DNA from: Streptomyces roseoverticillatus
Lineage (GTDB): Bacteria > Actinomycetota > Actinomycetes > Streptomycetales > Streptomycetaceae
DNA length: 64,000 nucleotides
Assembly: GCF_000719265.1 (NCBI RefSeq)
Contig: NZ_JOFL01000006.1
Coordinates: 310,001 to 374,000, forward strand
Direction of reading: 5' to 3'
Shown: one piece after another, positions 27,112 through 42,675 of the stretch
Layout: every line of letters starts with the position of its first letter
How positions within the stretch are numbered: the stretch's first letter is position 1
Notes under the pieces: model-generated
The model's input: only the letters and a program-made list of their open reading frames with translations
Told to the model about the DNA's origin: nothing
Database searches by the model: none
Translations under genes and position numbers: made by a program

Positions 27112-27131
27112 CGCGCGCAGTCCCGAAACCG

Positions 27132-27158
27132 CGGGCCGGCCCCTTCCGGGCCGGCCCG
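27132..27158. terminator. Bidirectional terminator hairpin
   Basis: CGGGCCGGCCC and GGGCCGGCCCG form a perfect 11-bp stem with loop CTTCC between the convergent genes ending at 27111 and 27179. Confidence 0.75.
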
Positions 27159-27178
27159 TCGGCGTACCGGGACACGGA

Positions 27179-28126: not shown

Positions 28127-28245
28127 GCCATTGACGCTATGCATCCCAGGCGGAACCGCCAAGAGGCAGATGGCACCGTTGCGTTGATACGGCGCCGCTG
28201 CCCCGACGTGCCTGCGCCGCTAGGACCGGGCCCACCCGTCTTCTT

Positions 28246-28474
28246 CCGCCGCGACGGCGATCAGTCACCGGCGAGGTGTCCGGCGGTGCCGTTCCGGCGC
28301 GCGGTGGGATCGGCACCGCCGGATTCCGCTGTGGTGGCTGATCGCCGCTGCGGCGGTCTCAAGGATGCGAGGCATCCTTGACCTGGGCGAACCGGGCCCG
28401 CGTTCCGGCGGCGGCCGGCATGCTTCCCCCGCCGCGGCGGCGATCAGCCACGGACGGCCTGTCCGGCGGTGCCG
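28246..28474. repeat. Intergenic repeat cluster B: three 46-bp elements
   Basis: Three more copies of the element described at 18.8-19.2 kb: 28246-28291 (plus), 28311-28356 (minus) and 28429-28474 (plus). All are exactly 46 nt and match CCGCCGCnnCGGCGA, TCAGYCAC, a variable 10-nt spacer and TCCGGCGGTGCCG. The 367-nt interval 28127-28493 has no convincing gene. It is the 3' end of the phosphatase gene and the upstream region of the MBL gene. Confidence 0.8.
28359..28381 (-). terminator. Perfect 10-bp hairpin downstream of phosphatase gene
   Basis: TCAAGGATGC and GCATCCTTGA form a perfect stem with a 3-nt loop (GAG), lying between repeat copies at 28311-28356 and 28429-28474, 113 nt past the phosphatase stop. 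Likely terminator on the minus strand. Confidence 0.55.
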
Positions 28475-28493
28475 GACCACCTCACCCCGTACG

Positions 28494-29597
28494 TCAATGT
28501 TCCCGCCGGACCGCGAGCAGCGCCGCGTCGTCCGAGAGCTCGCCCCCCGCGTACGCGAGGAGGTCGGCGACGACGCGGTCCAGGAGCGCGGCCGGGGACG
28601 CCTCCGGCATGGCGGCGAGCCGCTCCGCCAGAGGGTAGAAGCGGCCCGCCGCGTCCCGCGCCTCCGTCACCCCGTCGGTGTACAGCAGCAGGAGGTCGCC
28701 CCGCTCGAAGGCGAAGGGCCGCCCCCGGTACGCGCCGCCCGCCATGCCGAGGAGCGCCAGCGGCGGCTGGGGGTCGGGGGTGGGCACCTCGTCCACGTCC
28801 ATGCCTCCCGCCCGCCCCGGCCGGCACCGCAGGGGCGGCAGGTGGCCGCAGTTCACCAGTTCGGCCCGGCCCGGCCCGGTCACCTGCACGAGGGCCGCGG
28901 TCACGAACTCCTCGCCCGGCCGCCGCCGCCCCATCGCCGCGTCGAGGCGCCCCGCGACCGCCGCGAGCGAGGGCTCGACCTGCGCGGCCTCCCGGAACGT
29001 GCCCAGCACGGCCGCCGCCGTGTCGATCGCGGCGAGCCCCTTGCCCCGCACGTCGCCCATCAGCAGCCGCGTCCCGAAGGGCGTGACCAGCGTTTCGTAC
29101 AGGTCGCCGCCGACCCGCGCCTCGGCCGCTGCGGCCAGATAGCGCACCGCGACCCGCAGCCCGTCGAGCCGTTCGGGCGGCGGCCGCAGCAGCGTGTGCT
29201 GGGCGGCCTCGGCCACGGACCGCGACTCCAGCAGCTCCCGTTCGCGCGTGGCGACGAGCACCACGTTCGCGGTGCTGACGGACGTGATCGCCAGTACGGT
29301 GAACGCGGACGTCAGGTGGACGAGCAGGGGCACCTGGTCGTCGGCGAGCGCCAGCGGGGCGACGAGGACGAGCGCGCCCAGGCCGACGAGCAGCGGGACC
29401 CGGGGCCGCCGCGTGCCGATGCTGGCGAGCACCGGCGCGGTGGCCAGGACGGGGGACACCGTCCATTCCGGGCTCTGCGCCAGGTCCATCGCGACGGCGG
29501 CGGACAGCAGGACGTACGCCGCCACGACGAGGAGCCGCGCGCGGTGCGGCAGGCGCGGCGCCTGGGGCTGACCGTCCGGGCCGGTGGCGTGCGTCAT
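28494..29597 (-). CDS. Membrane-anchored RsbU/SpoIIE-type PP2C phosphatase
   Basis: 367-residue serine phosphatase. The N-terminal third holds four to five membrane helices (LLVVAAYVLLSAAVAMDLA, VPLLVGLGALVLVAPLALA, AFTVLAITSVSTANVVLVA). The SpoIIE domain begins near residue 130 with LRPPPERLDGLRVAVRYLAA, then VGGDLYETL, GDVRGKG, CGHLPPLR, LLLYTDGVTEARD and the final SDDAALLAV motif. The family relieves anti-sigma inhibition by dephosphorylating an antagonist. ATG 29597 is the start. No partner anti-sigma gene is adjacent; it lies just downstream of the carbamoyltransferase cluster on the same strand. Confidence 0.9.
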   Translation of the reverse strand: MTHATGPDGQPQAPRLPHRARLLVVAAYVLLSAAVAMDLAQSPEWTVSPVLATAPVLASIGTRRPRVPLLVGLGALVLVAPLALADDQVPLLVHLTSAFTVLAITSVSTANVVLVATRERELLESRSVAEAAQHTLLRPPPERLDGLRVAVRYLAAAAEARVGGDLYETLVTPFGTRLLMGDVRGKGLAAIDTAAAVLGTFREAAQVEPSLAAVAGRLDAAMGRRRPGEEFVTAALVQVTGPGRAELVNCGHLPPLRCRPGRAGGMDVDEVPTPDPQPPLALLGMAGGAYRGRPFAFERGDLLLLYTDGVTEARDAAGRFYPLAERLAAMPEASPAALLDRVVADLLAYAGGELSDDAALLAVRREH

Positions 29598-29645
29598 GAT
29601 TGATGTCCACCATCAGCCACACCCGCCCCGCCCGCAACCGCGGGC

Positions 29646-29801
29646 TCAGCGCTCCCCGGCCCCGCCGCCGGGCACGAAGTGCCAGTACGTCTCCGCCCGC
29701 GGCTGCCAGCGCCGCGCCAGCGGGTCGCGCACCCTGCGCCGGCACCACCCCCACGGGGTGACGGCCAGGTAGTACACCGCCGTCAGCAGGAACGTCCGCA
29801 C
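29646..29801 (-). CDS. Small protein (51 aa) at end of the carbamoyltransferase cluster
   Basis: The frame begins at GTG 29801 with a perfect AGGAGGT ribosome site 8 nt upstream and ends at 29646. The product starts VRTFLLTAVYYLAVTPWGWC, one likely membrane helix or amphipathic segment, and continues with RDPLARRWQPRAETYW. It lies 25 nt past the carbamoyltransferase stop. Similar very short proteins accompany NodU-type carbamoyltransferase and SGNH genes in other bacteria as I recall them, near SxtJ-type proteins; I cannot verify the match. Probable membrane-associated accessory peptide. Confidence 0.7.
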   Translation of the reverse strand: MRTFLLTAVYYLAVTPWGWCRRRVRDPLARRWQPRAETYWHFVPGGGAGER

Positions 29802-29826
29802 GGCGTCACACCTCCTTCCACGGCAG

Positions 29827-31662
29827 TCAGTCCATCGGGATCCCGGCACGCCAGTCCCGCTCCTCCTGCCACGGCGGCTGCTCCTGCTTGCGCAGCAGGA
29901 AGCCGCCCAGCGCCAGCAGATCGATGTTGGTCCGCATGAAGCAGGCGTACGCCTCGCCCGGCGTGTTCACGATCGGCTCGCCGCGGACGTTGAACGACGT
30001 GTTCACCAGCACCGGGCACCCGGTGCGCTCCTTGAAAGCGAGCAGCAGCCGCCGCAGCCGCGGATGCCGCCCGTCGACGGTCTGCACCCGCGCCGAGCCG
30101 TCGACGTGGGTGACGGCCGGGACCGTCGAGCGGGGCACGTGCAGCAGATCGAGCCCGCTCACCCCGCCGGGGACGTCGGCGGCGAGCCGCTGCGCTTCCG
30201 CGACCTTGCCGACGATCAGCATGTACGGGCTCTCCTGGCGCAAGGCGAACCAGTCCTTCGCGTCCTCGGCGAGCACCGCGGGCGCGAACGGCCGGAACGA
30301 CTCGCGGAACTTCGTCCGCAGGTTGAGCGCCGACTGCATGCCCGGGTCGCGCGGGTCGGCGAGGATGGACCGCGCCCCGAGCGCCCGCGGCCCGAACTCC
30401 ATCCGGCCCTGGAACCAGCCCACGATCGCCCCGTCCGCCAGCGCGCCCGCCACCCGCCGCGCCACGCCCTCGAACCCCGGGCGCTCGTACGGGATGCCGC
30501 GCGCGTCGAGATACGCGCCGATCTCGTCGTCCGAGTACTCCGGGCCCAGCAGCGCGCCCGCCATCGCGTCGTGCCCGGCGGCGGGGTGCGCCCGCGGGGC
30601 GCCCCGCTCGTACGCCTCGGCGAGCGCCGCTCCGAGGGCGCCCCCGGCGTCCCCGGCCGCGGGCTGCACCCACAGCTCCGTCAGGCCCGCGTCCTCCAGG
30701 AGCCTGCCGTTCGCGACGCAGTTGAGGGCGACGCCGCCGGCGAGGCACAGCCGCGGCTCCCCGGTCAGCCGCCGCGCGGTGCGCGCCAGCTTGACCATCA
30801 CCTCCTCGGTCACCTGCTGCACCGACGCCGCGAGGTCGAACTCCCGCTCGGTCAGGGGCCCTTCCGGCTGCCGCCGCGGACCGCCGAAGAGCTGCTCGAA
30901 GCCCGCGCCGGTCATCACCCGGCCCCGCAGGAACTCGAACCTGCGCAGGTCGAGCCGGAAGGAGCCGTCAGGCTTGACGTCGATCAGCCGCTCCTTGATC
31001 AGCGGAGCGAAGCGGGGAGTCCCGTACGGGGCGAGGCCCATCAGCTTGTACTCGCCCGAGTCGACCTTGAAGCCGCAGAAGTACGTGAACGCCGAGTACA
31101 GCAGCCCCAGCGAGTGCGGGAACCGCAGCTCGGCCAGGTAGCGCAGCCGGGTCCCCACGCCCTGCCACAGCGTGGTCGTCGCCCACTCGCCGACGCCGTC
31201 GACGCACAGCACGGCGGCCGACGGGTAGGGGCTCGCGAAGAACGCCGACGCCGCGTGGGACTCGTGGTGGCGCCGCGCCACCACCTCCGGCACCACCGCC
31301 CGCCCCCCGGGCCCGGCCAGGTGCTCGCGCACGGCCCGCGTGGCGGACCGCTTCCAGCCGAGCCAGGCCGGAAGCCCCTCGACGAAGGACGTGAGGCCGT
31401 GCGGCGCGGCCCCCGCGTACGTCGCGATCACCCGCCGGAACTTCAGCGCGGGATCCTCGTAGTACGCGATCGCGGACACGTCACCGAGCTCCGCGCCCGC
31501 CTCCCGCAGGCAGTAGCCGACCGCCCCGCGCGGGAACGACGGGTCGTGCCGTCTCCGGCTGAACCGCTCCTCCTGGGCGGCCGCGACCGGGACGCCGTCG
31601 GCGACCAGCGCGGCCGCACTGTCGTGGTAGAAGGCCGACAAACCCAGAACCAGCTGCGTCAC
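29827..31662 (-). CDS. NodU/CmcH-family O-carbamoyltransferase (first copy)
   Basis: Transfers a carbamoyl group from carbamoyl phosphate, via carbamoyl-adenylate, to a hydroxyl. 611 residues, full length. The N-terminal Kae1-like ATPase domain shows LGLSAFYHDSAAALVADG, EERFSRRRHD, RRHHESHAASAFFASP (metal histidines) and LCVDGVGEW. The C-terminal domain has LAGGVALNCVANG, GPRALGARSILADPRDP and VNTSFNVRGEPIVNTPGEA. GTG 31662 is the start. Its sequence is clearly different from the second carbamoyltransferase at 35966, so this is not a recent duplication. It sits in a tight minus-strand operon (15 nt after a 36-aa gene), within the proposed peptide cluster. Confidence 0.95.
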   Translation of the reverse strand: MTQLVLGLSAFYHDSAAALVADGVPVAAAQEERFSRRRHDPSFPRGAVGYCLREAGAELGDVSAIAYYEDPALKFRRVIATYAGAAPHGLTSFVEGLPAWLGWKRSATRAVREHLAGPGGRAVVPEVVARRHHESHAASAFFASPYPSAAVLCVDGVGEWATTTLWQGVGTRLRYLAELRFPHSLGLLYSAFTYFCGFKVDSGEYKLMGLAPYGTPRFAPLIKERLIDVKPDGSFRLDLRRFEFLRGRVMTGAGFEQLFGGPRRQPEGPLTEREFDLAASVQQVTEEVMVKLARTARRLTGEPRLCLAGGVALNCVANGRLLEDAGLTELWVQPAAGDAGGALGAALAEAYERGAPRAHPAAGHDAMAGALLGPEYSDDEIGAYLDARGIPYERPGFEGVARRVAGALADGAIVGWFQGRMEFGPRALGARSILADPRDPGMQSALNLRTKFRESFRPFAPAVLAEDAKDWFALRQESPYMLIVGKVAEAQRLAADVPGGVSGLDLLHVPRSTVPAVTHVDGSARVQTVDGRHPRLRRLLLAFKERTGCPVLVNTSFNVRGEPIVNTPGEAYACFMRTNIDLLALGGFLLRKQEQPPWQEERDWRAGIPMD

Positions 31663-31676
31663 GCGGCGCCCCCGGA

Positions 31677-31787
31677 TCAGAACATGGGATAGATGGACGC
31701 GTCGTCCGCCGGCTGCGGCTTCAGCGCCCGCTTGCGGCGCAGGCGCAGGCGCAGCAGCCGTGCCAGGACTCTGCGGAGCAGTGCCAT
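31677..31787 (-). CDS. Tiny basic protein (36 aa) preceding the carbamoyltransferase
   Basis: ATG 31787 follows GGGGAGGGG and the frame ends at 31677, 15 nt before the carbamoyltransferase start. The product is an arginine/leucine-rich helix (MALLRRVLARLLRLRLRRKR) followed by ALKPQPADDASIYPMF. The closing xIYPMF resembles the C-terminal PFIYTLF-type end of the small DUF5989/SxtK-like proteins seen with NodU carbamoyltransferases, as I recall them. Tight spacing on both sides supports a real gene. Function unknown; possibly a membrane-surface adaptor for the transferase. Confidence 0.65.
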   Translation of the reverse strand: MALLRRVLARLLRLRLRRKRALKPQPADDASIYPMF

Positions 31788-31809
31788 GCGACCCCTCCCC
31801 CCTCCGGTC

Positions 31810-32730
31810 TCAGGCGGTGCCGAGGCGGTCGGCGAGGACCCGGGCGACGGCGTCGTACCCGGCGTCGACGCAGTGCACCCGGTCCACGAACAGCCAGTCC
31901 CCGGGCCCGGTCGCCGCGCCGAGCTCCGCGTTCATGTCGACGAAGGGCACGCCCAGCGCCGCACAGCCCTCGCGCAGGGCGGCCGCGTAGGCGCGCCCGA
32001 CCTCCATCGAGGCGATGTCGTTGTGCAGCCGGCGCCAGTTGGAGACGTCGTCCAGCTCGTCGAACAGCGCCTTCTCCTGGGGCGCGGGCTGCTCCCGCAC
32101 CCAGGGCGCGAGCGGCTGCAGGACGAACGTCAGCCGCGCCCCGAGCGCCCGGGCCAGCAGCTGCCACCCGCCGAGGTGCCGCACCGTCAGCGCCGTGGCG
32201 TGCGCGATGCGCTCGGCCGGGGCCGGCACCGCGGACGGGTCCGGCGCGGGTCCGCACTCGAAGAAGGCGCCGTGCCGGCCGTGCTGCGCCGCCGGCAGCC
32301 GGCTGAGCACGAGGTTGTTGACGCCGGAGTACAGGACGATCTCCGCGACCTCGGGCAGCAGGTGCTGGAAGAGCGTCAGCAGCATCAGCTCCTGCGCCGA
32401 GTTCAGGCTCTGCCCCGAGAAGTTGAGCCAGGGCCGCCCGGGCGCGTGCCGGCTGCCCAGGCGCGAGGAGATCGTGGCGTGGTCCCCGCTCGCCCCCACG
32501 CCGAACACGGCGGAGCTGCCGGCCAGCAGCCGGACGGGCCCCGGCGGGCGCCCGTCGGCGACCGTCGCCGTGCCGTCCGTCGTGCGGGTGACCCGGAATC
32601 CGCACGAGTCGGTGGAGTACACCGGGGTGCGCTCGTTGCCGTACTGGAAGAAGCCGATGTACGGCTGGTCCTCCAGGACGAAGGTGTAGTGCTCCATGTG
32701 GGGGACGAGTTCGGCGCGCGGGGACTTCAT
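31810..32730 (-). CDS. SGNH/GDSL-type hydrolase family protein
   Basis: 306-residue protein with the four SGNH blocks in order: RLLAGSSAVFGVGAS (nucleophile serine), LNFSGQSLNSAQELM (glycine block), IVLYSGVNNLVLS (Asn block), and DRVHCVDAGYDAVARVLADRL (DxxH with the catalytic Asp and His). No signal peptide, so cytoplasmic or acting on an activated intermediate; such proteins can act as esterases or acyltransferases. ATG 32730 has GAGGAGAG about 9 nt upstream. Neighbours are the FAD oxidoreductase upstream and the 36-aa gene downstream. In this cluster it may remove or transfer an ester or carbamate; that is inference. Confidence 0.8.
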   Translation of the reverse strand: MKSPRAELVPHMEHYTFVLEDQPYIGFFQYGNERTPVYSTDSCGFRVTRTTDGTATVADGRPPGPVRLLAGSSAVFGVGASGDHATISSRLGSRHAPGRPWLNFSGQSLNSAQELMLLTLFQHLLPEVAEIVLYSGVNNLVLSRLPAAQHGRHGAFFECGPAPDPSAVPAPAERIAHATALTVRHLGGWQLLARALGARLTFVLQPLAPWVREQPAPQEKALFDELDDVSNWRRLHNDIASMEVGRAYAAALREGCAALGVPFVDMNAELGAATGPGDWLFVDRVHCVDAGYDAVARVLADRLGTA

Positions 32731-32776
32731 GGGGCAGGGCTCTCCTCGGGGATCCGGGCCGGCCGGTGGTGGCGGG

Positions 32777-33706
32777 TCAGTGGGCGGCGGGCGGCAGGTC
32801 GTAGAGCGCGCCGGGCCGGTCCTCGCGGATCAGGTCGGCGTTGACGGCCATGGCGGCGAGCCCGCCGCTGGCCGCGGCCATGGCCGCCTGCTGCATGTTC
32901 TTGCCCAGGTCACCGGCCACGTACAGGCGGGGGAGCGAGGTGCGGCCGCGCTCGTCGGTCTGGGCCTCCGTGAGGTCGGCGGCCTGGAGCCAGGGTCGCA
33001 GCGGCTCCACGCGCGGCTCGGTGTCCATGTGCAGGAACAGCGCCGTGAAGGTGAGCGAGCGACCGTCCGCCAGGTCGACGGCGACCCCGTCGGGGTGCGC
33101 CGACACGCTGGTGATCTTGTCGGGGACGGTGGCGACCCCGGAGGCGGCCAGGAAGCCCCGCTCCTCCTCGGGCAGCTCCCGCCGGTCCGACAGATAGGTG
33201 AGCGAGGACGTCCACGCGGTCAGGGTCGCGGCGAGGCACTCGCCGGGCACCGCACCGCCGTACACGCCGAAGTGCCCGTCCCGCACCTCGTAGGCGTGGC
33301 AGTACGGGCACTCGAACACGCCCTTGCCCCACAGCGCGGCGAGCCCCGGCACGTCCGGCACCTTCGAGCGCACGCCCGCCGCGTACACCACCGTCCGGCT
33401 CGTGTACGCCCCGGACTCCTTGGCCACGGTCACCAGGCAGTCGCCCTCGGGGGCCACGGAGATCACCTCGTCGTCCACGAACTCCACGCCGTAGCGGGCG
33501 ATCTCGGCGCGGGCGCGGGCGCGGAAGTCCGCGATGGTCACCCCGTCGTTGGTCAGCATGTTGTGCATGACGCCCGCCGCCATGTTCCGGGCGTCGCCCG
33601 AGTCGACGAGCGCGACGCGCCGGCGCGAACGACCCAGGTACAGCGCCGCGCCCAGGCCCGCCGGGCCGCCGCCGACGATCACGGTGTCATACAGTTCCGC
33701 GGTCAT
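32777..33706 (-). CDS. Thioredoxin-reductase-like FAD dithiol oxidoreductase
   Basis: 309-residue two-domain flavoprotein with GGGPAGLGAALYLGR (FAD) at the N-terminus, the redox pair CPYC at residues 133 and 136 (ECPYCHAYE), and the closing FAD motif LYVAGDLGKNMQQAAMAAASGG. The NADPH-binding part is degenerate (FGVYGGAVPGE), as in HlmI/GliT-type enzymes that use oxygen to close disulfides of natural products instead of reducing thioredoxin. ATG 33706 overlaps the transporter gene by 20 nt with GAGGAGAG inside it. The candidate precursor peptide has exactly two cysteines, so disulfide formation is an attractive but untested role. Confidence 0.85.
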   Translation of the reverse strand: MTAELYDTVIVGGGPAGLGAALYLGRSRRRVALVDSGDARNMAAGVMHNMLTNDGVTIADFRARARAEIARYGVEFVDDEVISVAPEGDCLVTVAKESGAYTSRTVVYAAGVRSKVPDVPGLAALWGKGVFECPYCHAYEVRDGHFGVYGGAVPGECLAATLTAWTSSLTYLSDRRELPEEERGFLAASGVATVPDKITSVSAHPDGVAVDLADGRSLTFTALFLHMDTEPRVEPLRPWLQAADLTEAQTDERGRTSLPRLYVAGDLGKNMQQAAMAAASGGLAAMAVNADLIREDRPGALYDLPPAAH

Positions 33707-35000
33707 GCTCTCCTCTTTCGGTGTCGGTGTGCTGCCGCGGCACGCGGGAGGCCTCCGGCTGTTCGCCGGTGAGCACGTCCTGGCGCAGCGGTGCGAGCAG
33801 GGCGACGGATCCCAGGATCAGGACGGCCCCGGACGCGACGAAGACGGTGGTGACGGACGTGGTGCGGGCGAGCAGCCCGCCGAGGGCCGCCCCGATCGGC
33901 ATCGTTCCCCACGAGCACAGGCGTGACACGCTCATCACGCGGCCCTGCAGCTCCGGCGGCGCGAACCGCTGGCGCAGGGACAGCACCGGGATGTTCCAGC
34001 TCATCATGAAGACGCCGTTGCAGAACATCGCGGCGCCGGCGGCCACGACGTGCCCCGCCAGGCCGAGCCCCACGTAGGCCGCGCCCGACAGGATCAGCGA
34101 CCACTGCGCCATGACGAGCGTGGGCAGCCGCCGGGAGAGCCGCGGCGCGAGCCACGTCCCGGCGATCGAGCCGACGGAGCCGACGGTCAGCAGCAGGCCG
34201 TAGCCGGTGGCGTGCAGGTGCAGGGTCCGGTAGGCCAGCAGCACCAGCATCGAGAACGTCGCCGAGTACACCAGGCCGTAGAGCGCGCTGGCGGCCAGCG
34301 TGCGGGTGAGCGCCGCCCGGGTGAGCACGAAGGAGACGCCCGTGCGCAGGTCCTGCCACATGGAGCGGGCCGCGGACGTGCCGGGCGGGGGAGCGGTGCG
34401 CGGGGCCGCCTTGACGCCGGCCAGCCCCAGCAGCAGCATCGCGGCCAGCCCGTACAGCGCGCCGCCGGTCGCCAGCGCCAGCGTCGCGCCGACGCCGACC
34501 AGGAGGCCGGCCAGCGGCGGGCCCGCCATCTCGTTGAGGATGACCTGCGGCGCGAAGAGCCGGCCGTTGGCGTGCTCCAGGTGCTCGGAGGCCACGATGT
34601 CGGGCAGCATCGCGGGCGCCGCGGTCTCCGCCAGCGTCTCGGCGATGCCGAGGACGAACGAGAGCGCGAACAGCACGGCCAGCGACGTGCCCGCGGCGAA
34701 CGCCCCGACGGCCGCCAGCAGCGCGGCCGCCCGCGTGAGATTGCTGAACAGCAGGATCCGCCGCCGGTCGTGACGGTCCGCCAGGACGCCCGCGGGTAGC
34801 GCGAACAGCAGCCACGGCAGCATGTTCACCGCCGTGAGCCCGGCCACCACCAGCGGCTGCGGGTGGCTCGCGACCACCAGCAGCGGCAGCAGGGTGCGGG
34901 TGACGCCGTCCCCGGCGTTGGACGCCACGGACGACGACCACAGCCAGCGGAAGCGGCTGCCCAGCACGGGTGTACGGGCAGGTGCGCCGGTCTCGGTCAA
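33687..35000 (-). CDS. MFS efflux transporter (EntS/MFS_3-like)
   Basis: 437-residue membrane protein with 12 predicted helices. The MFS signature between helices 2 and 3 is visible as GVLADRHDRRRIL, and FSNLTRAAALLAAVGAFAAG follows; MVMSVSRLCSWGTMP-like ELQGRVMSVSRLCSWGTMPI marks the C-terminal half. The type fits drug or siderophore exporters. Start is TTG 35000 (MTETGAPA), with GGAG about 9 nt upstream. Its last 20 nt overlap the oxidoreductase start. Likely exporter or self-resistance protein for the cluster product. Confidence 0.9.
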   Translation of the reverse strand: MTETGAPARTPVLGSRFRWLWSSSVASNAGDGVTRTLLPLLVVASHPQPLVVAGLTAVNMLPWLLFALPAGVLADRHDRRRILLFSNLTRAAALLAAVGAFAAGTSLAVLFALSFVLGIAETLAETAAPAMLPDIVASEHLEHANGRLFAPQVILNEMAGPPLAGLLVGVGATLALATGGALYGLAAMLLLGLAGVKAAPRTAPPPGTSAARSMWQDLRTGVSFVLTRAALTRTLAASALYGLVYSATFSMLVLLAYRTLHLHATGYGLLLTVGSVGSIAGTWLAPRLSRRLPTLVMAQWSLILSGAAYVGLGLAGHVVAAGAAMFCNGVFMMSWNIPVLSLRQRFAPPELQGRVMSVSRLCSWGTMPIGAALGGLLARTTSVTTVFVASGAVLILGSVALLAPLRQDVLTGEQPEASRVPRQHTDTERGEHDRGTV

Positions 35001-35052
35001 GGGACTTCACTCCGCGTCCGGCCGCGCACCGCCGCCCCGCCGCCCGGCCCGG

Positions 35053-35943
35053 TCACGACCAACTCGTGAGCCCCAGAAGCCGCTCGCCCAGCGGGGTGAG
35101 CTCGGCGCGCCCGTACAGCTCGCGCTCCTTCTTGCGAGGGCTTCCGTGGTGCTCGTGCTCGTGCGGCGGGATGCGGTCCCGCCAGAACCGTACGCGGCTG
35201 TCCCGGAGCGCGGCGTCGTCCTCCAGGGCGGGCGCCATGGAGATGTACTGTGCCATACGCACCCGGTCCGCGGAGCGGTTCGGACGCACTCCGTGCGGCA
35301 GCAGGCTGTTGAAGATGATCAGGTCGCCGGGGTCGACGCGCAACGTCTCGATCGCGTAGCCCGTGATGTCGGGCGTCATCGGGTCGCGGTCGGGAGGCTG
35401 TTCCTCCAGCCAGGCGTCCAGCTTCTCGAAGATGCCCGGCACGCACTGGAAGCCGCCGATCTCCTCGTTGCCCTCGCTGAGCGAGAGCACGCCCTGGCAG
35501 CTGATGGGCAGCGGCCGCCGGGAGGTGTCGACGTCCCAGTGGACGAACCCCTCGAACGCACGGGTGCCGCGGTTCGGCGGGTTGACGTTGGCGAAGTCGA
35601 TCACGACCCACAGGCCGGTGGTGTCCCAGATGTCGACGAAGGCGTCGTACACGCGCTGCGTCTGCCGGTTGTCCCACATGGCCTGGTGGTTGTAGATCTC
35701 CACCAGACCGCTGTGGCCCGGCAGCCGCTGGTTGTCGGTGCGGTCCGCGTACCAGGTCGCGGGGTCGCCGGGCACCATGTCCTCGAACTCCCACAGCGCC
35801 CGCGTCAGCCGCTCCACGTTGTCCGCGGAGACGGCCTGCCGGACGACGACGTATCCGCGGGTGGTCCAGTGCTCCCAGTCCTCGGGGGACAGCACGCGCA
35901 GCGGAAGCTTCTTGCGGATGTCCCTGAGCTGGGTCCTCGCCAT
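35053..35943 (-). CDS. Phytanoyl-CoA-dioxygenase family Fe(II)/2-oxoglutarate hydroxylase
   Basis: Non-heme iron enzyme of 296 residues. Iron ligands: His135 and Asp137 in VHWDVDTS, and His217 in LLPHGVRPN; the 2-oxoglutarate-binding arginine follows in ADRVRMAQY. GGFQCVPGIF and GDLIIFNSLLPHG are family blocks. Such enzymes hydroxylate small molecules or carrier- or peptide-bound amino acids. ATG 35943 starts MARTQLRDIRKKLPLRV. It lies 22 nt after the second carbamoyltransferase in the operon. A hydroxyl installed here could be the carbamoyl acceptor; inference from gene context. Confidence 0.9.
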   Translation of the reverse strand: MARTQLRDIRKKLPLRVLSPEDWEHWTTRGYVVVRQAVSADNVERLTRALWEFEDMVPGDPATWYADRTDNQRLPGHSGLVEIYNHQAMWDNRQTQRVYDAFVDIWDTTGLWVVIDFANVNPPNRGTRAFEGFVHWDVDTSRRPLPISCQGVLSLSEGNEEIGGFQCVPGIFEKLDAWLEEQPPDRDPMTPDITGYAIETLRVDPGDLIIFNSLLPHGVRPNRSADRVRMAQYISMAPALEDDAALRDSRVRFWRDRIPPHEHEHHGSPRKKERELYGRAELTPLGERLLGLTSWS

Positions 35944-35965
35944 GGTCGGTGCTCCTTGCTCCTGG

Positions 35966-37798
35966 TCAGGTGATGACGGTCCGCTCGTCGGCCAGGACGA
36001 CCGCGTCCAGAGCCGTGGTGTCCAGCAGCTCCAGAGCCTCCGCGAGGTCGTTGAGGATGGGCCGGCCGCCGGCGTTGGCGCTGGTGTTGATGAGGATCGG
36101 CAGCCCCGTGCGGCGGGCCACCGCGTGGCACACGCGGTGCAGCAGCGGATGCCGGCCGGCGTGCAGGGTCTGCAGCCGTGCCGTGCCGTCGATGTGCCGC
36201 ACCTCGGCGAGCAGCTCCGCGTGCTCCTCGCGGACGCGCACCGCGAACAGCATGGTGTCGGTGTGGTCGAGCGGACCGGCGAAGTACGTGCCGGCCACCT
36301 CCGCCGGGCACAGCGGCGCCACCGGCCGGAACCACTCGCGCCGTTTGATGGTCTGCGAGACGTGGCGCCGGGCGCCGGCCCAGTGCGGCGAGACGAGCAG
36401 CGACCGGTGCCCGAGGGCGCGCGGCCCGGTCTCCATCCCGCCGCCCAGCCAGGCCACGCACTTGCGCCCGGCGAGCATGCCGGCCACGTGCTCGGCCAGG
36501 GCGGCGTCGCTCGCGAGGGTCGTACGGGTGTGCCCGGTGCGCACCGGGCCGCGCGTCGTGAGCGTCGGACCGCCGTAGGCCAGATCCGCTCCCGGGTGCC
36601 GTCCTGCCGCCGGCCGGTCTTCCGGGGCGGCCACGGCCAGCGCCGCGCCCAGCGCGATCCCGGAGTCGTCGCAGCACGTGGGGATGTGCACCCGGGAGAA
36701 CAGCCCGCTCTCCGCGATCCGGGTGTTCGCCGTGATGTTCAGGGCGCAGCCCCCGGCGTAGCAGAGCACGGGGTGGCCGGGCCAGCGGGCGTGCAGCCCG
36801 GCGACGAGGTGGGTGAGGTCCTCCTCCACGGCCGCCTGGAGCGTCGCGGCCAGGTTCCGGCAGACCGGGTCGCCGGGGCTGTGCCCGACGAGGAACCGGT
36901 GCCCGCGCGGCGTGCGGATCTCGTCGGGGAACACCCCGCCGTAGGAGTGCACCACGTCGTCGTCGGTGGCGTCGCCCAGCAGGCCGTCCAGATAGCCGCC
37001 CGCGTCCTCGTCGTACGGGTACCAGGTGTCCTCGTAGCGCAGGGCGCTGCCGGCGGGCGCCTCGCCGCCGAGGGGAGCGAGCAGGTCGGGCGCGGCGCGC
37101 CGGGCCCGCTCCCCGGCGAGCATGGTGCGCAGCACGGGCAGGAGGCCGGCGTCGACGGTGCCGGTGGCGGCCAGGCCCAGCAGCTTGCCCGTGTCGAACT
37201 GGCCGCCGTGCACCCGGCGGGCCAGCGCCTCGTAGACCAGCCCGAAGCGCGGACCCGTGCGGTTGCTGAACGACAGGACGGGGGTCAGCGACGTGCCGTC
37301 GCCCAGGCACACCATGCCGCACTCGGCGTAGTTGCCCGTCCCGTCCAGGGCGAGGACGAGCGCCTTGTCCGCCCCGGAGGTGTAGTAGGCCAGGGCGGCG
37401 TGCGCGTAGTGGTGGCGCACGGCGATCACGGGCAGCGGGCCGGCCGGGCCGTCGGCGAGCGGCCAGTCCACGGACTTGACCGGGCGCAGGACGGAGGTGG
37501 CCAGCGCGTCGCCCGGGCGGCTCCACGTGATGTCCTCGGAGACGAGCTCCACGAGCCCGCCGGGCAGGATCCGGCACGCCGGCGTGTACCAGTCGGCGAC
37601 GGCGACCGCGGTGACCGGGCCGCGCGCCAGCGCGTGCAGCCGGTTCACCCAGTCGCCGACCGACGCCGCGAACCCGGCGTTGCCGCCGCACACGTGGCGC
37701 AGCCCCACCTGCCGCTCGCCCTCGATGACGTGGACGCCCGTCGGCTGGGCCAGGGCCGCGCCCCCGTCGTGCCCGAAGTTCAGACCGATCACCGGCAT
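35966..37798 (-). CDS. NodU-family O-carbamoyltransferase (second copy)
   Basis: 610-residue full-length carbamoyltransferase. N-terminal domain: IGLNFGHDGGAALAQPTGVH, metal-binding RHHYAHAALAYY, LVLALDGTGNYAECG, FDTGKLLGLAATG. C-terminal domain: YAGGCALNITANTRIAES, ETGPRALGHRSLLVSPH, DHTDTMLFAVRV and LPILINTSANAGGRPILND. The catalytic-dyad region is present. It differs widely from the copy at 29827, so the two probably use different acceptors. ATG 37798 is chosen (GGGG 9 nt upstream); the open frame further upstream is an antisense-frame artefact over the radical SAM gene. It begins 15 nt after the radical SAM stop, so the two are tightly linked. Confidence 0.93.
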   Translation of the reverse strand: MPVIGLNFGHDGGAALAQPTGVHVIEGERQVGLRHVCGGNAGFAASVGDWVNRLHALARGPVTAVAVADWYTPACRILPGGLVELVSEDITWSRPGDALATSVLRPVKSVDWPLADGPAGPLPVIAVRHHYAHAALAYYTSGADKALVLALDGTGNYAECGMVCLGDGTSLTPVLSFSNRTGPRFGLVYEALARRVHGGQFDTGKLLGLAATGTVDAGLLPVLRTMLAGERARRAAPDLLAPLGGEAPAGSALRYEDTWYPYDEDAGGYLDGLLGDATDDDVVHSYGGVFPDEIRTPRGHRFLVGHSPGDPVCRNLAATLQAAVEEDLTHLVAGLHARWPGHPVLCYAGGCALNITANTRIAESGLFSRVHIPTCCDDSGIALGAALAVAAPEDRPAAGRHPGADLAYGGPTLTTRGPVRTGHTRTTLASDAALAEHVAGMLAGRKCVAWLGGGMETGPRALGHRSLLVSPHWAGARRHVSQTIKRREWFRPVAPLCPAEVAGTYFAGPLDHTDTMLFAVRVREEHAELLAEVRHIDGTARLQTLHAGRHPLLHRVCHAVARRTGLPILINTSANAGGRPILNDLAEALELLDTTALDAVVLADERTVIT

Positions 37799-37812
37799 CT
37801 GCCCGGACCCCT

Positions 37813-39372
37813 TCAGACGCCCGTGCAGACCTGGGCGTGGTGGCGCTCCAGCAGCCCTTGCACGACCTCGCGCATGTACGCGCAGTAGCCCGGCGACATC
37901 ACCTGGATCGACCCGTTCTCCTCCTCCAGCGCGCCCGCGGATCCGCCCGAGCAGGTGCCCTGCAGCTCGCAGCCCTGGCAGCCGGGGCCGTTGGTGTAGG
38001 CGCGCATGCCGTAGTCGCGGTAGGCCGACGAGTTGAACACGCCCCGCCAGTCGTCGATCGTGCCGAGCTTGCGCGCCGTCGCCTTGCAGGCGAACACGCT
38101 GCCGTTGGGCTCGATGGACAGCTGCCGGCCCACGGCCGGGCACGTCTTGTAGTCCGCCTGGGCCGCCCATTTCGCCTCGTCGGCGATCATCTGGAACGTC
38201 TGGTACCAGTAGCCGCTGAGCTGCACCCCGCGCTCGCGCCCGTAGTCGACGGCGGACAGCAGCTTCTGCGCCACGTCGTGCGGGCTGTGCTGCTCGAAGA
38301 ACTCGCGGGCCTGGAAGGAGACGATCACGTCGAGGGAGTCCAGGCCGGCCTCGGCGACGAAGTCGATCAGGGGGGTGCCCCACTTGTCCCAGGTGTACTG
38401 CGACAGGACCGTGGTGATGCTGACGGGCACGCCCGCGGCCTTCATGTCGAGGATGGCCTTGCGGACCACGGGCCACGGCGTGCGCTGCTGCTGCCCGCCG
38501 CGGAACTCCCCGGTTTCGGGGACGAGGTAGTCGATCGAGACGGTGGTGGAGACGCGGTAGTCGGCGAGCGCCTTCAGCAGCTCGGCGTCGATGCGCGAGC
38601 CGTTGCTCGTCATGTCGTACGACAGCGTCACGCCGTCGTAGAAGTGCCCGAAGGTGCGCAGGATGTGCAGGATCGTGTTGCGGGCGAGCGTCGGCTCGCC
38701 GCCGAAGAACGACACGGTGAGCTCGCCGCCGCCGTTGGCCTTGCGCAGTGCCACCGCCTCCCGCAGCGTCTTCTCCGCGACCTGCGGGGACATGTGCATC
38801 GAGGGGTTGCGGGCGCCGTCGGTGCCCTCGTTCCAGTCGCCGCGGGCGAGCGTCGGCCCGCTGTCGCCGCGCGCCGTGCGCAGCTGGACGAGGACCGGGC
38901 CGGGCTTGACGGACTCCCCGGAGGTGTTGCGCTCCTCGACGCCGCCGTCGAAGTTGTAGGCGAAACAGCCCTGACAGGAGAAGTTGCAGGCGTTGGTCAG
39001 CACGAGCTGGATCGAGGAGTGGAAGACGCCGCTGCTGAGCGCCTCGCCGCGGGCGGCGAGGAGTTCGTCGATCTGCGCCGCCTCGTCGTGGCCGGCCTCC
39101 ACCAGGTACTGCGCCTCGATGAGGCTGTCCACGGTCTCGCTGCCCGCTCGCGCGCGCAGCGTGTCCAGCGGGATGCCGTCGGCCGCCTCGTGCAGCAGCG
39201 CGACCGTGTCGCGGTCCACCAGGCGGGCGTTGCCGAAGAGGGAGTGGAAGGCCACCGTGCGCTCGGTGCCGTCGTAGGCGTCGAGCCGGCCGCCGAACCG
39301 CGAGAAGTCGCGGTCCCGGGCGGTGCGCATCGTACGGACGTAGCGGGAGGACTGGTAAACCGGAGCTGACAT
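37813..39372 (-). CDS. Radical SAM/SPASM peptide-modifying enzyme
   Basis: 519-residue radical enzyme. The first 110 residues (FHSLFGNARLVDRDTVALLH, SLIEAQYLVEAGHDEAAQID) resemble the PqqD/RRE-like leader-binding region of RiPP maturases. The radical SAM cluster motif CNFSCQGC has Cys129, Cys133 and Cys136, followed by FFGGEPTL. A C-terminal SPASM domain (CPAVGRQLSIEPNGSVFACK, then CQGCELQGTC and GYCAYM) binds two auxiliary iron-sulfur clusters. ATG 39372 has AGGAGGAA 9 nt upstream. It lies directly downstream of the candidate precursor gene, beyond a 13-bp hairpin. Such enzymes make C-C, C-S or C-O crosslinks or epimers; which one is not predictable here. Confidence 0.93.
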   Translation of the reverse strand: MSAPVYQSSRYVRTMRTARDRDFSRFGGRLDAYDGTERTVAFHSLFGNARLVDRDTVALLHEAADGIPLDTLRARAGSETVDSLIEAQYLVEAGHDEAAQIDELLAARGEALSSGVFHSSIQLVLTNACNFSCQGCFAYNFDGGVEERNTSGESVKPGPVLVQLRTARGDSGPTLARGDWNEGTDGARNPSMHMSPQVAEKTLREAVALRKANGGGELTVSFFGGEPTLARNTILHILRTFGHFYDGVTLSYDMTSNGSRIDAELLKALADYRVSTTVSIDYLVPETGEFRGGQQQRTPWPVVRKAILDMKAAGVPVSITTVLSQYTWDKWGTPLIDFVAEAGLDSLDVIVSFQAREFFEQHSPHDVAQKLLSAVDYGRERGVQLSGYWYQTFQMIADEAKWAAQADYKTCPAVGRQLSIEPNGSVFACKATARKLGTIDDWRGVFNSSAYRDYGMRAYTNGPGCQGCELQGTCSGGSAGALEEENGSIQVMSPGYCAYMREVVQGLLERHHAQVCTGV

Positions 39373-39445
39373 CGGTGGACTTCCTCCTGGATCTGGTGCG
39401 GACCGAACGGGGCCGGGGCGCCGGCCGGGGGAGCGCGACCGTGGA

Positions 39446-39482
39446 ACGGGCCCGCCGCAGGCGTGGATCGCGGCGGGCCCGT
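39446..39482 (-). terminator. Attenuator-like hairpin between precursor and radical SAM genes
   Basis: ACGGGCCCGCCGC and GCGGCGGGCCCGT pair perfectly over 13 bp with an 11-nt loop. It begins 22 nt after the precursor stop and ends 73 nt before the radical SAM start. Partial termination here would keep precursor mRNA in excess over enzyme mRNA, or protect its 3' end. Confidence 0.75.
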
Positions 39483-39504
39483 CGGAACCGGTGCGCCGGG
39501 ACTG

Positions 39505-39672
39505 CTACGCAGGGGTGACCGTTTCCTTCGCCTCGGAGACGTCCGTGCAGACCGACTCCGCCTTCGGTACCGGCGTGATCGTCGGGGCGTTGCCCTTGTC
39601 GGGCGAGACGAACCCGCAAGGGCGGGACGACGCCGTGGGTGTCGGAGTGATCATCTTCTTGACTTCGGCCAT
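39505..39672 (-). CDS. Candidate RiPP precursor peptide (55 aa), Thr/Pro/Ser-rich, two cysteines
   Basis: ATG 39672 is preceded by GAGGAGAG with 6 nt spacing. The product begins MAEVKKMITPTPTASSRPCG and ends with TDVSEAKETVTPA. Of 55 residues 8 are Thr, 8 Pro and 5 Ser; TP dipeptides occur at 9-10, 11-12, 33-34 and 53-54, cysteines at 19 and 42, and the only aromatic residue is Phe21. It lies first in the radical SAM/SPASM operon, separated from the enzyme by a hairpin, the classic RiPP arrangement. It matches no class I know. The leader/core boundary is unclear; the N-terminal seven residues are the only leader-like part, so core residues may span most of the peptide. Confidence 0.72.
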   Translation of the reverse strand: MAEVKKMITPTPTASSRPCGFVSPDKGNAPTITPVPKAESVCTDVSEAKETVTPA

Positions 39673-40142
39673 CAGTCTCTCCTCGCCGTGGTCTGGCGGT
39701 ATGCGTGCATACGCGGTCAGCGAATCATGGCCGGGTCGGGCCGGGGGATATTCGTTCCGGCCACTTTTTTCGGAGCGTATTACTTGATCGGGACTGCTGG
39801 TATTAGCGCATGAACGGTATGGATTCCTGTTCGAGAACGAGGCGGCCGGCCTTGCGGGGATCGAGGGTTTCCGGCGCCACCAGGGAACATGCGGAAAATG
39901 CCGCCGCCGATGCCCCTTCCGGATATGCATGTGCATGGCATGGATCAATTGCCAGGACCTCACCGGCCGTTACGGACCGGGCCGGGAAGGGGCTCGGCGC
40001 GCCCGATGATCTGTGGCCCGCTCTTTTCCAGTGGCGCCCGGCACTCTTCCCGGACGGCGGCATTGCGGCCGGGCGTGTGCGCGAGGGAGCGCGCCGGAGG
40101 ACGGGAATGCGCCTCCCGGCCGCTCCGCGTGCCCGTGCGCGC
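39673..40142. promoter_or_regulatory. Promoter and unexplained region upstream of precursor gene
   Basis: About 470 nt with lower GC than neighbours and no convincing gene. GTATGCGTGCATAC (39699-39712) is a dyad with 6-bp arms 27 nt before the precursor start codon and could be an operator or 5' leader hairpin. Because the upstream oxygenase gene ends in a strong terminator (40143-40177), the precursor promoter must lie here. Short open frames of 45-50 codons exist on the minus strand but lack ribosome sites. No clear -35/-10 pair was identified. Confidence 0.5.
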
Positions 40143-40177
40143 GCCCTGCCGCAGGCTCGCGCGGCCTGCGGCAGGGC
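40143..40177 (-). terminator. Terminator of the second dioxygenase gene
   Basis: GCCCTGCCGCAGGC and GCCTGCGGCAGGGC form a perfect 14-bp stem with a 7-nt loop, 37 nt past the oxygenase stop. It isolates the precursor transcript from the upstream gene. Confidence 0.75.
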
Positions 40178-40214
40178 GGAGGGAATGCGGGGAGGGGCCG
40201 GGGAGCGGCAGCGG

Positions 40215-41174
40215 TCAGTGCAGGTCGTCCCAGGTGATGACCGGGCTCGCGGAACGCAGGCCGAAGTCCACGGCCGGGTTTCTTACGGGCCACTTCAGGC
40301 GCAGCCAGCAGGGCACGGTGGCGGCAATGCCGTCGTCGGCCGCGAGATGCCAGAACGTATTCGAATCCTGGCGGGCAAAATACGGGCAGAACAGTGAGAT
40401 CACCAGCGTCACCCGGTGGCCCTTCGTCACGGGCGTGACCGCGTGGAAGATTCGGCTGCCGTGGAGGAACAGCGTCGCGCCGCGCTCGCCGAGATCCGCC
40501 TCGCGGAACCGGGAATCATCCGCCACCGGCCCGGGGAATTCGTCGGTACGCCCCCGGAAGTAGGTGAAGCGACCGCCGTCGTAGTCGTCGTAGCCGCTGA
40601 GCTGAATCGTGAAGACGTAGTCCATGCCGTCGCGGTGCCAGCGGACGCCGCCCTGCCGGCCCCCGCCCTCGCCGTAATTGATCTGGGTCGTGGGAAGCCG
40701 CAGCGGATGGGGAATCAGCGGAATTCCGACCAGTCGCGAACAGGTGAGGAGGAATTCGCGGTCGCGGATCATGTTGGCGAGGAACGGCGAGAGGAGATCG
40801 GCGGCGCGCAGCCGCCGCGTCGCGGTGAACCCCGCGTCCTGCGCCGCCGCTTCGAGCTGCTCGCACACCGCGGTCAGCCGCTCCAGCCCCTCGTCCGTCA
40901 GGAGGCGCCACGGCCCCGCGACGGCCGTGTCGTCGACGCGCCCCTTCGCCCGCAGGAGTTCGCCGTCGTGATACCCGAACTCCCGCAGCGACACCCGCGG
41001 TACGGCCGCGCGGGGCGCGACGAACCGGCTGTGCCAGGGCGGCTCCGCGGGCAGCCGGGCGCTGCGCAGCGGAGGCCGGGCGCGCAGCGCCTTCATGACC
41101 TTCCGGAATCCGTCGGGGGCCTGGGGCAGATCGAGTGCGCTCGGTCTGCCGCTCACTTTCGGCGCTGTGGGCAC
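40215..41174 (-). CDS. Fe(II)/2-oxoglutarate-dependent oxygenase (second in cluster)
   Basis: 319-residue non-heme iron oxygenase. Iron ligands are His180 and Asp182 in WHRDGMDYVFT and His244 in GSRIFHAVTP; the 2-oxoglutarate arginine is in GHRVTLVIS. LPTTQINYGEGGGRQGGVRW precedes the metal site, a prolyl-hydroxylase-like layout, which is interesting next to a Pro-rich peptide. GTG 41174 is chosen because AAGGAGAT lies 5 nt upstream; the open frame continuing upstream overlaps the divergent esterase gene. It is transcribed toward the precursor gene but ends in its own terminator. Role as a peptide hydroxylase is inference from context. Confidence 0.85.
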   Translation of the reverse strand: MPTAPKVSGRPSALDLPQAPDGFRKVMKALRARPPLRSARLPAEPPWHSRFVAPRAAVPRVSLREFGYHDGELLRAKGRVDDTAVAGPWRLLTDEGLERLTAVCEQLEAAAQDAGFTATRRLRAADLLSPFLANMIRDREFLLTCSRLVGIPLIPHPLRLPTTQINYGEGGGRQGGVRWHRDGMDYVFTIQLSGYDDYDGGRFTYFRGRTDEFPGPVADDSRFREADLGERGATLFLHGSRIFHAVTPVTKGHRVTLVISLFCPYFARQDSNTFWHLAADDGIAATVPCWLRLKWPVRNPAVDFGLRSASPVITWDDLH

Positions 41175-41283
41175 GGGGCATCTCCTTTTCGGGAAACGCA
41201 TGCGGCGGAACCGGCCGACGGGCCATCCGAGAATCTCCCACCGGGCCGGGCCACTGGCAAGAGCCGTGGCACACCTTCCTGAG

Positions 41284-41311
41284 TTGCTGCATTTATGGAG
41301 ATATGTAGCAT
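41284..41311 (+). promoter_or_regulatory. Candidate promoter with overlapping dyad between dioxygenase and esterase genes
   Basis: TTGCTG (41284-41289), a 16-nt spacer and TAGCAT (41306-41311) form a plausible sigma-70-like promoter for the esterase operon. An imperfect inverted repeat with ends GCTGCAT and ATGTAGC (41286-41309, 8 of 12 paired positions) overlaps it. The 156-nt gap is AT-rich and serves both directions. Confidence 0.4.
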
Positions 41312-41330
41312 TTTCAGGGAGGTGCGATGG

Positions 41331-42647
41331 ATGCAGATCTCCGCAGGCCCGCTGGACTGGTCCCTGGTGAGCGGATGGATTCCGGTCGCCCTCCTGGCCG
41401 TGGGAGTGTGCGCCCTCGCGGCGCTCCTCTTTTCCCGCCGCCGCACCTGGTGGACCCGGTGGGCCCCGGCGGCCGTCCTGCTCGCCGCCGCCGCGACCTG
41501 GCTCCTGCGCACCGCCGTCGACGACTGGTGGCAGCCCTTCCCCGACCCCCTGCCCACCGGCGTGGTGGTCTGGGCCGGGATCGCCGTCCTCGGCGTGTGC
41601 CTCGCCGCCTTCCGCATCCCGCTGCTCCGCCCGCGGCACTGGGCCGGCGCCGTCCTCGCCGGCCTCCTCGTCGTCCTCCTCGGCGCCTCCGAGATCAACC
41701 GGCACTTCGACCAGTACCCCACCGCCCGCAGCGCCCTCAACTCCTGGCTCACCAAGACCACGAGCATCACCGAGGCCACCGGGCGCACCGAACCCGTCCT
41801 GCGCGTCCCCGCCGGCAGGACCGTCGCTGACGTCTGGCGCCCGCCCGCCGGCATGGCCGAGCGCGGCACCCTCTCCAAGTCGTCCGTCCCCGGCATCAGA
41901 TCCGGCTTCCACGCCCGCAGCGCCTACGTCTACCTGCCGCCCGCCTACCGGGCCACGCCGCGACCCCTCCTGCCGGTCGTCGTCCTCATGGCCGGCCAGC
42001 CGGGATCGCCCGACGACTGGATCAGCTCGGGCCGCCTCGTCGACATGATGAACGCCTTCGCCGCCGAGCACCGCGGCCTCGCGCCCGTGGTCGTCGTCGT
42101 GGACCCGCTCGGCTCCCAGTTCGCCAACACCCTCTGCCTCGACTCCCGGCTCGGCAACGTCCAGACCTACCTCGCCACCGACGTCCCCGACTGGATCCGC
42201 TCGCACCTCCAGGTCGCCCCCGCCCGCACCTCCTGGGTCATCTCCGGCATCTCCTTCGGCGGCACCTGCTCGATCCAGCTCGGCGTCAACGCCCCGCAGG
42301 TCTACGGCGTCGTCAACGACATCTCCGGCCAGGAGGCCCCCACCCTCGGCAGCCGGGAGAAGACCGTCGGCAAAGCTTTCGGTGGCGACACCGCGGCCTT
42401 CACCGCCGTCAATCCCCTCGACGTGATGGCCCGGCAGCGCTTCCCTGACACCAAGGCCGCCTTCGTCGCCGGCGGCAGCGACAGCACCTACCGCCCCCAG
42501 CAGCGCAAGGTCTACGACGCGGCCGTCAAGGCCGGCATGCGGGCCGAGTGGGTCCTGCTCCCCGGCGGCCACAGCTGGCAGGTCTGGCGGCCCGGCCTGG
42601 AGCGCCAGCTCCCCTGGATCTCCCGCGAGACGGGGCTGACCCGATGA
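41331..42647 (+). CDS. Membrane-anchored esterase-family alpha/beta hydrolase
   Basis: 438-residue protein: three to four membrane helices at the N-terminus (WIPVALLAVGVCALAALLFS, WAPAAVLLAAAATWLL, VVVWAGIAVLGVCLAAF, AVLAGLLVVLLGAS) and an extracellular esterase domain (esterase D/antigen 85-type) from about residue 185 (SAYVYLPPAYR, PVVVLMAGQPGSPDDWI). The nucleophile elbow is GISFGG and the C-terminal histidine lies in PGGHSWQVW. ATG 41331 is chosen, with GGGAGG 7 nt upstream. It is 28 nt before the aminoacyl-lipid synthase gene. In corynebacteria a paired exported hydrolase removes aminoacyl groups from lipids, a plausible parallel. Confidence 0.85.
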   Translation: MQISAGPLDWSLVSGWIPVALLAVGVCALAALLFSRRRTWWTRWAPAAVLLAAAATWLLRTAVDDWWQPFPDPLPTGVVVWAGIAVLGVCLAAFRIPLLRPRHWAGAVLAGLLVVLLGASEINRHFDQYPTARSALNSWLTKTTSITEATGRTEPVLRVPAGRTVADVWRPPAGMAERGTLSKSSVPGIRSGFHARSAYVYLPPAYRATPRPLLPVVVLMAGQPGSPDDWISSGRLVDMMNAFAAEHRGLAPVVVVVDPLGSQFANTLCLDSRLGNVQTYLATDVPDWIRSHLQVAPARTSWVISGISFGGTCSIQLGVNAPQVYGVVNDISGQEAPTLGSREKTVGKAFGGDTAAFTAVNPLDVMARQRFPDTKAAFVAGGSDSTYRPQQRKVYDAAVKAGMRAEWVLLPGGHSWQVWRPGLERQLPWISRETGLTR

Positions 42648-42675
42648 GCCACTCCCGTGAGGCAGGGCCGATCCG

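Follow-up and report, generated by a model that had tools for sequence, protein, structure and literature searches.

According to a 2026 preprint, crocagin is the product of the only well-characterised pathway for a ribosomally synthesised and post-translationally modified peptide (RiPP) with a carbamoyl transferase, and StdF, a NodU-like enzyme that carbamoylates a lysine amine of a RiPP precursor, provides the second (PMC13174530). Fusions of a RiPP recognition element (RRE) with a carbamoyltransferase have also been predicted (PMC12710340, partial text). Work on the gvg clusters recognises at least eight variants, found in Streptomyces among others, that share a core of gvgA, gvgB, gvgC and gvgF; most are uncharacterised (PMC8064604). 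In the 4-formylaminooxyvinylglycine (FVG) cluster, which makes a free amino acid, IopA has its counterpart in GvgA, and both gvgB and gvgG are needed for production (PMC8067088). The tvg cluster includes TvgC, an Fe/2-oxoglutarate (2OG) enzyme (excerpt of PMC11002830). Here we describe a gene cluster of Streptomyces roseoverticillatus, located on the minus strand at 29646-41174 of a 64,000-nucleotide stretch (contig NZ_JOFL01000006.1, positions 310,001 to 374,000; hereafter the window), in which a radical S-adenosylmethionine (SAM) enzyme stands beside two conserved small peptides and two distinct carbamoyltransferases. Our favoured reading, held with slightly better than even confidence, is that it is a secreted-metabolite cluster of two peptide modules working by the mechanism proposed below. 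Among the 30 listed of 50 open-licence PMC papers that treat both carbamoyltransferases and RiPPs, judged by titles and abstract openings and, for three of them, by passages, no description of this gene set was found, a result that this scope makes weak as evidence.

All eleven open reading frames (ORFs) listed in an earlier sequence-only reading of the locus were verified. Ten of them, from peptide A down to tiny1, form a compact unit (29646-39672) with 132 nt between peptide A and the radical SAM gene and gaps of 14-52 nt elsewhere. Inside the unit, the genes of the major facilitator superfamily (MFS) exporter and the thioredoxin reductase (TrxR)-like oxidoreductase overlap by 20 nt, exactly as that reading had stated, and those of the carbamoyltransferase CT1 and tiny1 overlap by 23 nt. 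Pfam and NCBIfam scans of ten of the eleven proteins (peptide B was left out) returned the radical SAM, SPASM, PhyH, MFS and Pyr_redox_2 families, with Carbam_trans for both CT1 and CT2, and gave no match for peptide A and tiny1. Family matches and motif thus bore out the SPASM radical SAM enzyme, the MFS exporter and the CPYC flavoprotein of the sequence-only reading.

Conservation was assessed in 24 loci, comprising the window, 20 distinct genome-contig loci from a radical SAM protein scan, one plasmid locus, and the loci L037 and L045 from genome searches. Peptide A and the radical SAM gene were present in all 24, CT2 in 23, the MFS, TrxR-like and SGNH hydrolase genes in 22 each, the oxygenase OG2 and CT1 in 21 each, tiny1 in 18, and the oxygenase OG1 in five. 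Three loci (L006, L010 and L015) end at contig ends and L037 ends with the stretch examined; the absences beyond such sequence ends were OG2 in L017, tiny1 in L012 and L020 (where its matches stayed under threshold), and OG1 in 19 loci. In at least one of these 19, L018, the sequence upstream of peptide A runs to just 1,197 bases. Gene set and order are kept in relatives, and the ten-gene unit is therefore a real travelling cluster. Few genes beyond peptide A–tiny1 were common to the loci compared, except among near kin, and the pairwise distances of five cluster proteins correlated at 0.84-0.90 across 21 loci. The neighbourhood comparison that had been suggested for the radical SAM gene accordingly showed the set travelling together, including two distinct carbamoyltransferases as claimed, with no regular lack of the precursor or the transferases among relatives.

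The cluster is sparse within the genus. A radical SAM profile (A1) built from the window protein and 13 proteins hand-chosen from 32 listed matched nine of 392 genomes at genus rank (E 1e-60), seven of 394 at family rank (1e-90), three of 394 at class rank (1e-60) and two of 396 at phylum rank (both at 1e-60 and at 1e-20), in overlapping samples that each include the own genome. Searching a plasmid collection with the radical SAM protein returned one record, from Streptomyces sp. NBC_01431; there the entire cluster (L022) lies on a 737-kb linear plasmid typed as non-mobilizable in PLSDB. In viral contigs, 36 stretches fit a pattern in the radical SAM profile search and none was confirmed. The cluster at L002 is 94-98% identical per protein to that of the window, in a record titled Streptosporangium nondiastaticum whose protein match is labelled Streptomyces nondiastaticus. 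Further radical SAM relatives, with the GYW motif described below, come from Chromobacterium (P0028) and Zixibacteria (P0027).

Peptide A (39505-39672, minus strand, 55 aa) is a real genetically encoded precursor under selection beside modifying enzymes, as the sequence-only reading had suspected. In an alignment of 23 precursors, a constant start (MA and Lys6) precedes a near-constant block, T13-P34, around TASSRPC..VSPD.GNAPTITP, and the C-terminal stretch is free. Cys19, the only conserved cysteine, and Ile32, the single isoleucine within PTITP (codon 39577-39579), were invariant in all 23. Among 40 database matches, 39 kept Lys6 and 39 kept C-x12-I, the fortieth for the latter being a divergent 45-aa type. 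Over codons 1-34, differences at the first, second and third codon positions numbered 699, 678 and 2376, and the median ratio of nonsynonymous to synonymous rates (dN/dS) was 0.163 (226 pairs with dS > 0.05), indicating that the amino acid sequence is maintained.

The radical SAM/SPASM enzyme (37813-39372, minus strand), which has an RRE-like N-terminal segment, matches TigE over nearly its entire length and is much closer to TigE than to CteB by both sequence and fold. A GYW motif at residues 387-389 (38206-38214) aligns with the GYW of TigE and with the GNW of CteB, and occurs in 14 of 14 aligned rows and in all 33 radical SAM homologues. Three other SPASM frames of the own genome (379, 344 and 434 aa), picked out by strand and frame length, lack GYW; CxxxCxxC was found in one of them (L051). 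In cyclopropyl synthases such as TigE and TvgB, which form a cyclopropane on Ile or Val, the tyrosine of GYW is a ligand, and their precursors, TvgA and TigB, carry Ile or Val in repeated sites of the T-[IV]-G type. Peptide A is not repetitive and offers a single Ile site. PAIGT repeats were seen only in a relative at L034 (11715-13335), a distant genome in which a GYW radical SAM gene is paired with the repeat peptide, directly in front of what looks by eye like a leucyl-tRNA synthetase gene.

The remaining genes of module 1, which comprises peptide A, the radical SAM enzyme, CT2, the flavoprotein and the MFS protein, all have recognisable families. CT2 (35966-37798, minus strand) is a NodU/TobZ-family carbamoyltransferase (PF16861, 3.2e-47; PF02543, partial; TobZ, 3.6e-51), and the predicted MFS exporter (33687-35000, minus strand) matches PF05977 (2.4e-36) and PF07690. 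The TrxR-like flavoprotein (32777-33706, minus strand; PF07992) contains CPYC and lies near dithiol oxidases such as DepH, with matches to 4ntd (6e-41), DepH (4nte, 5.7e-40) and GliT (4ntc, 2.9e-19). A second unit in S. harbinensis (L035, 4538-10461) lies about 3.6 kb away from the main cluster's peptide A, in opposite orientation. It holds a radical SAM gene (64% identical), a CT2-type transferase (53% identical), an opposite-strand CPFC flavoprotein, an MFS gene and a 45-aa precursor; the 19.9-kb stretch gave no SGNH match and no CT1 beyond the CT2 types. The 45-aa peptide aligns with peptide A at Cys19 and Ile32, which is suggestive of homology at a borderline level.

Module 2 is built around an SGNH hydrolase (31810-32730, minus strand) that falls below the Pfam cutoff (29.8 vs 32.9 bits), yet matches the crocagin hydrolase CgnD (8a2n) at E 7.5e-54, so that the hydrolase of the sequence-only reading held up. 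The catalytic regions align, GSS..FGVGA for the serine and FVDRVH for Asp-x-x-His, placing the protein by homology and by both regions in the CgnD family. It is GvgA/IopA-like by annotation name, the L022 record being annotated 'Inducer of phenazine A'. In the plasmid collection, five records had an SGNH match (Streptomyces, Photobacterium, Acinetobacter, Pantoea and Agrobacterium), and a CT1-type transferase was nearby in all five. CT1 (29827-31662, minus strand) is a GvgF-like, NodU/NovN-family carbamoyltransferase (PF02543, 2.1e-84; PF16861, 9e-69) and is 57% identical to the transferase of the Photobacterium locus, which is a gvg-type set with a haem-oxygenase-like protein, a class III aminotransferase, a formyltransferase and LysE. 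In the Pantoea locus, a PhyH gene lies beside the transferase; in the window, the PhyH-family 2OG oxygenase OG2 is found at 35053-35943 (minus strand; PF05721, 1.5e-11).

Between the SGNH and CT1 genes lies peptide B (31677-31787, minus strand, 36 aa), with a basic N-terminus and the tail DDASIYPMF. The sequence-only reading had counted two tiny proteins, and both are present; it had not foreseen that one of them is a second conserved peptide. A tail DDAS[IV]YP[LM]F stands at the extreme C-terminus in 21 of the 21 loci that reach CT1, and the N-terminal part is variable, with lengths of 32 to 119 aa depending on the start chosen. Variable positions in the last 14 codons numbered 13 at third, five at first and five at second positions. 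In the four proteobacterial plasmid records, small basic ORFs at or just behind the SGNH end have the tails SIYPMF, SIYPLR, SIYPLR and STYPLR, and the window peptide ends in the same SIYPMF as that of Photobacterium. A looser tail pattern found only two other matches in 618,427 bases, both where the TrxR genes in L004 and L005 encode their C-terminal ends, which we take as chance. The micropeptides of the four proteobacterial records (L056-L059) are Lys-rich with S[IT]YP[LM][FR] tails and are absent from the gene tables of the annotated L056 and L057. The other tiny protein, tiny1 (29646-29849, minus strand, 67 aa), has a hydrophobic start and a basic end, is GvgG-like by position only, and gave no tblastn match in L056-L058.

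From gene content, conservation, homologies and invariant tails, all observed directly, we infer every chemical step of the following scheme. In module 1, the RRE-like part of the radical SAM enzyme would bind peptide A, and the enzyme would most likely link two side-chain carbons of Ile32 to give methyl-cyclopropylglycine. CT2 would carbamoylate a residue of peptide A, and the TrxR-like oxidase may act on Cys19, for example to give a disulfide-linked dimer. In module 2, peptide B, with its basic leader and S-[IV]-Y-P-[LM]-F tail, would most likely be carbamoylated by CT1 and cut by the CgnD-like hydrolase, freeing the modified tail, and the PhyH oxygenase may provide a hydroxyl for carbamoylation. 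The two modules may meet in one molecule, and the product, probably a small secreted compound, would be exported by the MFS protein. Because the SGNH protein, peptide B, CT1 and tiny1 resemble gvgA, gvgB, gvgF and gvgG, the paired transferases are best explained as one per module. The proposal in the sequence-only reading of a RiPP cluster with radical SAM chemistry is supported; a gvg-resembling module, a transferase for each of two modules and the absence of OG1 from most other loci were beyond it. The O-carbamoyl chemistry that it named is putative, the NodU-like StdF acting on a lysine amine (PMC13174530). Considerably more speculative, and in our judgement doubtful, is the extension that GvgB-type micropeptides are ribosomal precursors or scaffolds and that gvg-like clusters, perhaps FVG included, make peptide-derived products; the module here would then be coupled with a RiPP module of the cyclopropyl-synthase kind, yielding a doubly carbamoylated, cyclopropane-bearing hybrid.

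Several points weigh against the two-module scheme. The structure model has low confidence around the CxxxCxxC loop (predicted local distance difference test, pLDDT, <50 at 129-135 and 171-191), and the best NCBIfam match is the thioether maturase PapB (NF047865; 77.2 bits vs a cutoff of 340). Cyclopropanation leaves Cys19 and the oxidase unexplained, and a disulfide is a guess. When the 45-aa peptide was compared with peptide A, 159, 4 and 141 of 5000 shuffles reached the score for the three references, and its profile match is circular, the sequence being part of A2. In module 2, start codons of peptide B are uncertain in several loci (L007 and L016 lack a ribosome-site match), and placing OG2 there is a guess, since in a tblastn search it did not match the Pantoea PhyH gene. 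No CgnB/CgnE-like gene was recognised among the larger genes, which were otherwise assigned and not searched for it directly. CgnD frees the crocagin core in vitro, slowly, according to partial text (PMC10070186). Finally, complete gvg clusters make the free amino acid FVG, which fits poorly with a released peptide tail.

Alternatively, the radical SAM enzyme could form a thioether, as ranthipeptide or sactipeptide synthases do, bonding Cys19 to a nearby residue, for example Asp25, while the TrxR-like enzyme handles the thiol. We consider this unlikely, since the PapB score stays far below the cutoff that would assign a ranthipeptide maturase, TigE is a much better match than CteB by sequence and fold, and CteB has GNW where GYW stands here. 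The L034 precursor, moreover, has Ile repeats and no Cys, and Asp25 falls in an alignment gap of the divergent L035 precursor. A thioether synthase, once the lead reading, was demoted on the closeness to TigE and the presence of GYW.

For module 2, the question is what peptide B does. All enzymes might act on peptide A to give one product from one precursor, with peptide B and tiny1 serving as helper or membrane-anchor subunits of SGNH-CT1. The single compact, co-inherited gene unit, the basic, helix-like start and variable linker of peptide B, and the need for gvgB and gvgG in making a free amino acid (PMC8067088, partial text) all speak for this, and we regard it as a serious possibility that is nonetheless probably wrong: the SGNH-CT1-B set occurs without a peptide A match in four proteobacterial plasmid stretches, and peptide B is invariant at its very C-terminal end, a trait of many core peptides. 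That invariant tail would also suit a carrier role for peptide B, in which a free amino acid is assembled at its C-terminus and later cleaved away by the SGNH protein, in a pearlin-like manner. This we think quite improbable, as no amino-acid-loading ligase was recognised in the cluster, and of the loci viewed the Pantoea one alone showed ATP-grasp genes.

The eleventh gene, OG1 (40215-41174, minus strand), lies apart from the ten-gene unit. The sequence-only reading had named two 2OG oxygenases, of which OG2 is confirmed as a PhyH protein and OG1 is a weak match to another family (PF10014, E 0.0052, below cutoff). H180-R-D182, H244 and R254 are invariant in five rows, and because the AlphaFold model is poor (pLDDT 31.5), it is on this motif that the family of the OG1 protein, 2OG-Fe(II) oxygenase-like, is based. 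OG1 was dropped as a core gene at five of 24 loci, window included, and its position 542 nt upstream of peptide A together with that count makes it probably accessory. Adjoining the cluster at 42676-46018 are an LPG_synthase_C protein and an opposite-strand M24 metallopeptidase, each matched in four of 21 other loci. An Rfam scan of 27000-43000 gave no match, a promoter scan found 0 (0.3 expected), and a terminator scan found 2 (2.1 expected).

Compared with described systems, the cluster would add paired carbamoyltransferases that accompany a radical SAM enzyme predicted to form a cyclopropane. With the std cluster of S. thermodiastaticus (PMC13174530, partial text) it shares a NodU-like carbamoyltransferase for a ribosomal peptide; std, however, has a single fused transferase-peptidase with YcaO and MNIO enzymes, and 'radical SAM' has no mention in the text. 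The TrxR-like flavoprotein shares a CPYC pair with dithiol oxidases of the DepH/GliT type, whereas the precursor here has one conserved Cys only. With the TigE/TvgB pathways it shares the near full-length TigE match, GYW and an adjacent small precursor, and differs in the single Ile of peptide A and the added transferase, flavoprotein and CgnD-like hydrolase. The crocagin cluster (PMC10070186, partial text) likewise has a CgnD-family hydrolase, a carbamoyltransferase and a 2OG oxygenase, and CgnA, like peptide B, has a short basic leader and a C-terminal core that starts Ile-Tyr (Ile-Tyr-Trp in CgnA). In contrast, peptide B ends IYPMF rather than IYW, the peptide A tail is variable, so that neither peptide has the Tyr-Trp core of crocagin, and the window cluster has a radical SAM enzyme and no methyltransferase.

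The likeness to gvg and gvg-like clusters (PMC8067088, PMC8064604) concerns module 2. The SGNH protein corresponds to GvgA through the IopA name and CT1 to GvgF, and peptide B and tiny1 correspond by position to GvgB and GvgG, the WH6 GvgB sequence lying outside the comparison. Of the gvg-like core, A-, B- and F-like genes are present; among the ten cluster proteins scanned, there was no Haem_oxygenas_2 match for a GvgC-type gene, and none from the gvgH aminotransferase or gvgI formyltransferase families of the complete FVG cluster. Unlike gvg clusters, this one is joined to a radical SAM module. PMC8064604 also reports that Streptomyces sp. HK2006-1 carries gvgA, C, F and G homologues within its aldgamycin/chalcomycin cluster, and the main text of that paper has no mention of 'radical SAM' or 'crocagin'. 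The cluster described here connects the FVG/phenazine-inducer proteins GvgA/IopA, the hydrolase CgnD of the crocagin pathway and GvgB, a micropeptide that is required for reasons yet to be explained. By the terms searched, the three papers checked on these systems do not mention one another's. The Photobacterium gvg-type cluster carries a B-type tail at the GvgB position, and through this six-residue tail the unsolved role of GvgB becomes directly testable.

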